Assembly: GCA_020091685.1 (NCBI GenBank)
Contig: CM034599.1
Coordinates: 27,279,922-27,343,921, forward strand
From: Lutjanus erythropterus
Taxonomy: Eukaryota; Chordata; Actinopteri; Lutjaniformes; Lutjanidae
DNA length: 64,000 nt
Direction of reading: 5' to 3'
Shown piece after piece: positions 13,201 through 21,948 of this stretch; position 1 is the stretch's first letter, and each line of letters begins with the position of its first letter. The notes beneath the pieces were generated by a model. It did not search any database, was not told the DNA's origin, and saw only the letters and a list, made by a program, of their open reading frames with translations. The translations under genes and the position numbers were made by a program.

Positions 13201-16200
13201 GGAGAGGTGGTGATGAGGAAGGTGGAGAAGTCGGCCGATGGCTCCAGCCTCAGCCAAGTCACCAAGACAGACCGCTTCGCCCAGTCTGGTAGTCTTTTCC
13301 TTTTCTCTCATTTCTGTTTGCATTTCTGAACCTTCGTTAAACTTTTCTTGAAGCTGTAATGAATCACTGAAGACAACAAAGAATCACTTCTTACTTACAG
13401 TGACTTCTTACTTTACAATTGCAAGACACAACAGGCATCTCAGGAGGAAAAAGGGAAAAACAGCCAAACATGATGAAGAGTAAACAGTGAAAGCAGATGG
13501 GAAAACAAATCACGAGGAGAATGACAGTCATGAAATGGAGACTGTCCAATATATAAATAATTTAAAGTGTGTATTTGTGTGTTTAGATGACGGGAGCAGA
13601 TCATCACGCAGCACTGTTGTCGAGGCCAGTTATGTGCAGAAAACAGACAGTGAGTCATTACTCTGTTTCTCCCTCTGGCTGTCTTACAATACTGCAGAGT
13701 CATTACAGTCTCATCACTAATAGCGCGCATATGTCTCCGTGTTTGTTTATTATTTCAGGAGGGACAGTCCAGTCAAAATCATACAGCTTCAGCTCTTCCA
13801 CATCATCCTCCTCTTCTAACACAAGCAAAAAAGTGGGCAGGTAGGTGATGAAACAACACTTTAATTACACAACAAATTAATTGTTATACATACTATTTTT
13901 AAATTATACTGATTGTAGATTGGGTTGCACCAACAACAAATCCATTTAACCTAATATTTGTTTTAATCAGAATTTAGCAAAACTAAGTTAACTTGCTTAC
14001 CCAGATTAAAATAAATTAATTAGTTAAAATAAATTTGAGTTCTGCCGGGCTCAAGTAAGAATGAAGAGGGCAGGGACTGCAGCAAATGGATGGAGTAAAA
14101 GAAAGAAGAGATGCATCATAAAACTCAGTTGAGTCTTTTAACTTCCTTTGAGGAACTTCAATATTTTGCTGAATCCATCTCAAAAAAGCAGCAATTTTAA
14201 AAGTTAATCCTCCTCAAATGTAAGTTTTAAGTTAATACTGGATCACATTTTTGCATCACAAGTTTTGATGTGACATAATTAAATTTAATCTAGGCTTAAA
14301 GTAAAAACTAAATTGAGGTTTAAATGGAATCTTTCTTAAATTTAAGCTAGTTTAAAAGTTTAGTGCATCGTAATTTTAAGTTAAACGATGATTTGACAGG
14401 GTTTAAAAGTTAGTCCTTCTCGGTGCTTCCCAGTCTAAGTTTAAAATCCCTTTGCTTTTATAAATGACCTTGCTCTATATGTCCCTACCTCAGCGTATTT
14501 GATCGCGAGGATGACACATCATCACGCAGTGGCAGCGGTGGGCTGGCCGCTGTGGAGCGACGGCAGGCGGAGAGACGCAAGGAGCTGATGAGGGCTCAGA
14601 CCCTGCCGAAGACTTCTGCCATGCAGGCCCGCAAAGCCATGATAGAGAAGCTGGAGAAGGAGGGAGGCGGGTAAGGATAAACAGAGAGGTATTACTACCA
14701 AAGAAAGAAAAAGGGCAGATCAAAGCATGTAAATATTAACACAAACTCAACTTTTCTTTTAGCCCTGGAAATCAGGCAGTCGCCAAGGTAAACAAGGTCC
14801 AGCGTTCCACCAGCTTTGGTGTACCCAACGCAAACTCCATCAAACAGATGCTGCTTGACTGGTGCCGCGCCAAGACCCGCTCATATGAGGTGAGCCAACC
14901 CACTGTGTGCTTAGTGCTCATCTTTAATGTCAGCCTCTCCTACTTTGGGAATGTTTCCATCGCTTATCTATCACTGCCTCCATGTTTATTCTCTTGGTCT
15001 TGTCCTGCAGCACGTGGATATTCAAAATTTTTCATCCAGCTGGAGTAATGGCATGGCGTTTTGCGCCCTGGTGCACAATTTCTTCCCTGAAGCCTTTGAC
15101 TACAGCTCACTGAGCCCCAGCAACCGCAGGCAAAATTTTGAAATGGCCTTCAGCACTGCAGAGTGAGTACACACACAGAAACACATTCGTCTGAGTAACA
15201 TGTCCACTAACCACATCAGTTCTGTTATTGTTGTTAAGTTTTGACTGCAAGTGAATGCGTCAACCAGCTACATCAACTGCAGTGAACCTTCGTGACAGAG
15301 ATATGAAGAATATGAAGACAAACCAGAAGAGGAAGCTACTGCACGCTCAGCTTTTCTCAGTGCAGATTATTTAATGTGGAGTTGTGTGAGATATTTGTAC
15401 AGCAGATGCTGGTCAACACTCATCCAATTTGGAAAAGCAGTGAGGAGTACCAGCACAGAAGCTAAGCAATGAACTGCTGTAGATGGGGTCAGCAGGAAAA
15501 TGTATTTTTGACACTTCAACGTCAATCTAAAAAAAAAAAAGGTATCTGTTTAGGTGTACACTATATGTAGAATATTTTCACTGCCTTACCTTGCCGTCAG
15601 CCAGCCTTTTCTGATGAGAAAACATGATTTATAAGACAAATATTGTTCACTCCAAACCAACCAAATTCCATGGGTGATATTAGTAATTTTATTTCACAGA
15701 ACACAGGAGTTGCAGGTCTACCACTGCCTGTATCTGTTAGTTTGTTTGCATTATTGTGTGGCTCCAGTAAATCCGCACTTACCATTTAAAACTGAGGTCA
15801 CACATCAAACTAACAGATTAAAGCAGTGGTAGACCAGCAAGTCCCATGTTCAGCAAGTAAAATGATTGATTTTGCCTATGGGGTCTGGTTGGTTTGGTGA
15901 GAGCAATAAATGAAATTTATACACTGGTTTCCCATCAGAAATGGCTGTCTGACAGCAAAGGGGTGAAAATATATTCTAAATATAATGTACAATTAAACTG
16001 ATGTAGAATTTTTTTCCCCCCTAAGATACATTTTGCTGCTGACTCTGTCCAAAGCAGTTCATTCCTACACTGGTACTCCTGCTGTATGTCCCTCACACAA
16101 CCCCACTTCAAATAATCCAAACTATGCCTTTAAATTTTGACTGCAAGTGAGAGCATCAGTCGACTTTGTCGGAGAAACCACATCAACTGCAGTGAACCTT

Positions 16201-21948: not shown

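Follow-up and report, generated by a model that had tools for sequence, protein, structure and literature searches.

The E20/E21 splicing switch of smoothelin as predicted in one more vertebrate genome, that of Lutjanus erythropterus

Introduction

The smooth-muscle marker gene SMTN encodes proteins that differ in their last part, and the choice between these endings has been described in some detail. According to the account of Garg and Fisher (2023; PMC10643981), a constitutive 152-nt exon is followed by a 165-nt cassette exon (E20), which has its own stop codon and encodes an SMTNL1-like ending with a KTKK motif in its tail, and by the terminal exon E21, whose ending is SMTNL2-like. The unique endings comprise 48 and 50 aa, the switch is reported to be conserved to fish, and the E20- form has been found high in smooth muscle cells and the E20+ form in non-muscle cells; Kramer (2001) and Rensen (2002) are cited there for the isoforms. 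The same paper calls the functional significance of the two forms unknown and likewise leaves their partner specificity open. With regard to regulation, RBPMS has been reported to repress the penultimate exon of Smtn (PMC6613909), and in one cell system RBPMS, MBNL1/2, RBFOX2 and QK have each been described as repressors of exon 20 (PMC12721327). For QKI the direction differs between reports, as the repression given in PMC12721327 stands against a lower inclusion of the Smtn penultimate exon upon QKI knockdown (PMC5062968). In myotonic dystrophy myoblast cultures, SMTN splicing has been found among the altered events, the exon being unnamed in that account (PMC4161394).

Further described systems bear on single features of the locus reported here. 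The SMTNL1 protein has been reported to bind apo-calmodulin via an IQ motif at residues 439-457, within its CH domain, an interaction of weak affinity (Kd of about 1e-6 M) that, according to the authors, may lack sufficient stability in vivo (PMC5359911). At the level of splice sites, AG exclusion zones of at least 100 nt have been described to mark candidate distant branch points and to go along with more cassette splicing (PMC1431707), and GGG between positions -15 and -3 has been described to mark weak 3' splice sites that are tied to alternative exons, 82% of the zebrafish G-tract sites sampled being species-specific (PMC6339879). Long AG-free zones typify exons of differentiated muscle cells according to Llorian (2016), where Smtn E20 is grouped with the proliferative exons and the text on AG-free zones does not name Smtn.

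Here, we have analysed 64,000 nt of Lutjanus erythropterus DNA (the window, which denotes this whole stretch). It very probably holds a vertebrate SMTN gene that carries the known E20 cassette switch. The initial annotation had stated that human SMTN offers the same choice, and this statement is matched by the E20/E21 switch in print (PMC10643981).

Gene Structure and the Two Endings

The features of the gene are collected in Table 1, in which exons are named after their SMTN equivalents. E19 is preceded by AG, is open in one frame and is followed by the donor AGA/gtgagt (slashes mark splice junctions), and its 3' end, a GCA codon followed by GA, leaves it in phase 2. The acceptors aacag/G of E20 and cctcag/G of E21 each supply a G that completes the same GAG codon (Glu), from which the E20 frame continues for 48 aa (49 with Glu) to a TAG with its last base at 18934, and the E21 frame for 50 aa (51 with Glu) to a TGA ending at 21948. 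When the exons from 11098 to 15162 are joined to either ending and to either of two upstream exons, all 4/4 combinations stay in frame and contain a single, terminal stop. The initial annotation had claimed a common exon ending in phase 2 and two downstream exons that complete the same Glu and bring their own stops, and its coordinates, phases and peptides agree with those obtained here.

The Smoothelin motif is encoded by the first ones of the six common upstream coding exons. The exon at 538, one of the two that can precede them, is presumably of the SMTN-B type. The other, with 295 open codons, resembles the coiled-coil start of SMTNL2, for which an approximate SMTNL2 sequence has been used as the reference (local score 116, shuffle maximum 49, n=500), and the SMTN locus might thus also hold an SMTNL2-like alternative first exon.

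Table 1. Coordinates of the features discussed in the text (positions within the window).
Feature	Position	Strand	Basis or detail
Upstream coding exon joining 11098 in frame	538..611	+	good acceptor
Putative alternative first exon with its ATG at 6354, joins 11098 in frame	6354..7238	+	open frame, donor 5/9
Six common upstream coding exons	11098-11283, 11562-11637, 13109-13288, 13587-13649, 13759-13840, 14494-14670	+	in-frame joins
CH-domain start exon, E18 equivalent	14763..14889	+	tblastn with human SMTN L2, 16/17 residues at 14839-14889
Common CH exon, E19 equivalent	15011..15162	+	152 nt, length as in the published constitutive exon
AG-free pyrimidine-rich stretch before E20	18495..18784	+	290 nt
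Candidate branch point CCTTAAT	18550-18556	+	A at 18555, 232 nt from E20
GGG tracts between pyrimidine tract and AG	18772-18774, 18778-18780	+	at -15..-13 and -9..-7
E20 equivalent	18787..18959	+	stop 18932-18934, then 25 nt to predicted donor
IQ-like motif, 11 residues, encoded by E20	18874..18906	+	pattern [ILV]QxxxRGxxx[RK]
E21 equivalent, terminal coding exon up to TGA	21795..21948	+	frame, homology

The locus resembles the published switch (PMC10643981) in its 152-nt common exon, in a predicted optional exon that contains a stop codon and encodes an SMTNL1-like ending, and in the lengths of the unique endings, which are 48 and 50 aa in both. The downstream ending may be SMTNL2-like as well, judging from a comparison with an approximate SMTNL2 sequence. 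It differs in the predicted length of E20, which is 173 nt here and 165 nt in mouse, in the absence from E21 of the 27-28 aa insert described for zebrafish E21, and in the tail of E20, which reads KTKNSS instead of KTKKS.

Homology of the Endings

Pfam searches with the joined protein have returned PF12510 (Smoothelin, 3.4e-19) and PF00307 (CH, 2e-24), i.e., the motif and a single C-terminal CH domain; rows under the curated cut-off (CAMSAP_CH, CH_2, BTV_NS2, PG_binding_2 and Hamartin) have been left out. With human SMTN L2 as the query, tblastn against the window has detected 18797-18931 (E=3e-23) and 21751-21888 (E=5e-7), both values holding for the window alone, while 10565-10675 (E=0.001) and six rows with E>1 have been omitted. 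The E20 and E21 peptides are identical at 17/49 positions, and their alignment score of 68 has to be compared with a maximum of 39 among 2000 shuffles. Based on the tblastn E-values and on a score above all of these shuffles, the resemblance of both endings exceeds chance. The E20 and E21 exons presumably go back to an old duplication. A scan for relatives with the joined E19+E20 peptide in two sequence collections not designed for vertebrates has confirmed 0 of 28 pattern matches (genome_contigs) and 0 of 7 (viral_contigs).

Compared with chains of known structure, the joined E20 form aligns with human SMTN splice isoform L2 (PDB 2d87) at 3.7e-68 and 230.6 bits, through the C-terminal KGLVKTK tail, and with SMTNL1 (PDB 2jv9) at 2e-58 and 199.1 bits. 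For the joined E21 form, the best chains are again 2d87 (2.8e-52) and 2jv9 (8.3e-47), with alignments that end before the E21 tail. At the level of the endings, the E20 peptide shares 34/47 residues with mouse SMTNL1 and 38/49 with human SMTN L2, the latter count including the last Ser of the 2d87 chain, which we assume may be a tag residue. The corresponding values for the E21 peptide are 20/47 and 18/49, and against approximate reference sequences it reaches 31/45 with human SMTN E21 and 31/42 with SMTNL2. Taken together with the basic KTK tail, the E20 values bear out the earlier assignment of the first ending as SMTNL1-like. The accompanying proposal of two CH domains from different subfamilies has to be modified, as the domain is common to both forms up to helix IV; the two forms are accordingly variants of one type-2 CH domain.

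Beyond the gene, pieces at 24060-24326, 28017-28028 and 30957-31277 (-), which resemble selenoprotein M, combine CGG and QLNRL with a TGA in frame at 28017. Pfam has given nothing above cut-off for two of these pieces, and Rfam, applied with gathering scores, has returned 0 matches in the window, so that the selenoprotein M-like gene is without a SECIS match at the gathering threshold. At 59543-59842 (+), a piece of an inositol polyphosphate 5-phosphatase, possibly INPP5J, has been recognised (Pfam PF22669, 7.8e-11).

The E20 Acceptor

The region upstream of E20 is unusual. Its AG-free stretch is the longest of all AG gaps in the window (4,238 on the plus and 4,298 on the minus strand, 8,536 in total), the next on either strand measuring 180 nt, and compares with 17-98 nt at the 10 other acceptors of the gene that have been examined. 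It exceeds the 100 nt of the zones described for exons with distant branch points (PMC1431707), the branch point itself being a candidate here. Base composition explains much of this feature, since 1,415/20,000 base shuffles of the stretch (7%) are likewise without AG; for the same reason, the AG-free stretch alone has been rejected as proof of a distant branch point. Between the pyrimidine tract and the AG, two GGG tracts are located within -15..-3, as in the G-tract (REPAG) 3' splice sites (PMC6339879), and by analogy to these a role of hnRNP H/F may be considered. Among the 11 acceptors examined, that of E20 is the only one with GGG in this interval, and it contains 3/13 pyrimidines at -15..-3, compared with 9-12/13 at the 10 others. 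Being a weak G-tract acceptor that follows a long AG-free stretch and a predicted branch point far upstream, it may render E20 inclusion regulated. Against this reading speak the account of Llorian (2016), in which long AG-free zones go with differentiated muscle cells and Smtn E20 with proliferative ones, and the species-specificity of most zebrafish G-tract sites sampled (PMC6339879).

Counts of 10 regulator motifs, taken in each of 5 regions around E19, E20 and E21 (50 tests) and compared with 500 first-order Markov sequences, have likewise yielded nothing convincing. The lowest fractions, 0.032 for CTCTCT (1 seen) and 0.052 for TGCATG (1 seen), both belong to the region downstream of E20, and an RBPMS-type CAC pair is absent from E20 and from the 300 nt that flank it on each side. 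A (TG)47.5 repeat occupies 19710-19804 in the intron that separates E20 from E21; UG repeats can bind splicing proteins, e.g., CELF and TDP-43.

An IQ-Like Motif in the E20 Ending

The E20 ending fits the IQ consensus listed in Table 1, and the E21 ending does not. In a relaxed form, the pattern is shared by E20 of this locus, human SMTN L2 and mouse SMTNL1 but is absent from E21 here, while the stricter form with RG occurs, among the endings compared, in the present E20 only. If the 2jv9 chain ends at residue 459, the construct end given in PMC5359911, residues 439-457 of SMTNL1 would be encoded by its counterpart of E20. The SMTNL1 CH domain (2jv9; PMC5359911) provides a close comparison, as it shares the above-mentioned 34/47 residues with the E20 peptide and carries the IQ-like pattern at the same place; SMTNL1 differs in being a gene of its own whose last exon is constitutive. 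As the IQ-like motif is found in E20 only, at the apo-calmodulin site reported for SMTNL1, it is plausible, judging from the sequence, that E20 splicing may toggle the calmodulin binding of smoothelin; the weakness of the apo-calmodulin binding described for SMTNL1 (PMC5359911) speaks against it. In the main text of PMC10643981, neither "calmodulin" nor "IQ motif" occurs, and in a literature search that combined smoothelin isoforms with calmodulin or IQ motif, with most subscription journals outside its coverage, no title states the idea of such a toggle.

Discussion

The assignment of the gene to SMTN depends on its endings, its scores and its surroundings. The neighbours look like SELENOM and an inositol 5-phosphatase, and we take SELENOM and INPP5J to adjoin SMTN in human. 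These neighbours argue against an SMTNL1 or SMTNL2 gene, as does the E20 form, which reaches more bits with SMTN L2 than with SMTNL1, and as does the presence of both terminal exons, a pair that is reported in PMC10643981 for SMTN only; despite the resemblance of the 6354-7238 exon to the start of the approximate SMTNL2 sequence, such an identity is extremely unlikely. The E20 acceptor, which is poor beside the AG, could be that of an exon no longer in use. That one of E20 and E21 is an unused relic in the present species is nevertheless very unlikely, because neither frame is interrupted, E20 retains its 38/49 residues of human SMTN L2 with the tail included, and E21 aligns with CH relatives.

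The 18787 exon had been labelled, together with that at 21795, as an alternative last exon. Based on the donor ATG/gtgaga at 18959/18960, which matches 7/9 consensus positions 25 nt after the E20 stop, we instead consider it a probable cassette exon that can be skipped and that contains a stop itself. The mammalian counterpart, the 165-nt E20, is likewise a cassette that is either included or skipped, and the event there is no choice between polyadenylated last exons (PMC10643981). Among 10 further donors in the joined exons, 1 scores 8, 5 score 7 and 4 lower, and since 159/3,852 GTs in the window score at least 7/9, the E20 donor is to be regarded as a prediction. A single AATAAA at 19158, 224 nt past the stop, leaves some room for E20 as a true alternative last exon that is cleaved past this intronic signal and never spliced to 21795; considering the donor and the mammalian precedent, we regard this course as unlikely, and the protein outcome would be unchanged by it.

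With E20 as a cassette exon, skipping of the 18787 exon would join the 152-nt exon to 21795 and yield the E20- CH half, which is the smooth-muscle form in mammals. Upon inclusion, the stop of the 18787 exon would terminate the protein, which would then carry the SMTNL1-like E20+ half, and the 21795 exon would turn into 3'UTR. Both forms are presumably made in the present species, with E20 being spliced onward at the predicted junction after 18959. Nonsense-mediated decay follows a 50-55 nt rule, and due to the short distance of 25 nt between stop and junction, the E20+ mRNA should be spared from it. The E20+ protein would likely differ in helix VI and in the tail, and it alone would present the IQ-like motif at the site where SMTNL1 is reported to bind apo-calmodulin. 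More tentatively, and with rather low confidence in the combination, one may postulate that the E20 choice switches an apo-calmodulin IQ motif, that the distant branch point and the G-tracts set its inclusion, and that an ancestor possessed both endings, one of which was retained in SMTNL1 and one in SMTNL2 once the gene had been duplicated.

Conclusion

The finding of two alternative endings is correct and its initial interpretation holds in essence, yet it is the published switch met in one more vertebrate genome, and it is not new, as the same switch has already been described in mammals and other vertebrates. The locus adds a further genome in which a smooth-muscle marker gene carries this conserved switch, an example and no new phenomenon. 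What goes beyond the published switch is the unusual E20 acceptor and the possible calmodulin toggle, both of which are modest additions. If the toggle is true, splicing would rewire how the end of the CH domain senses calcium.
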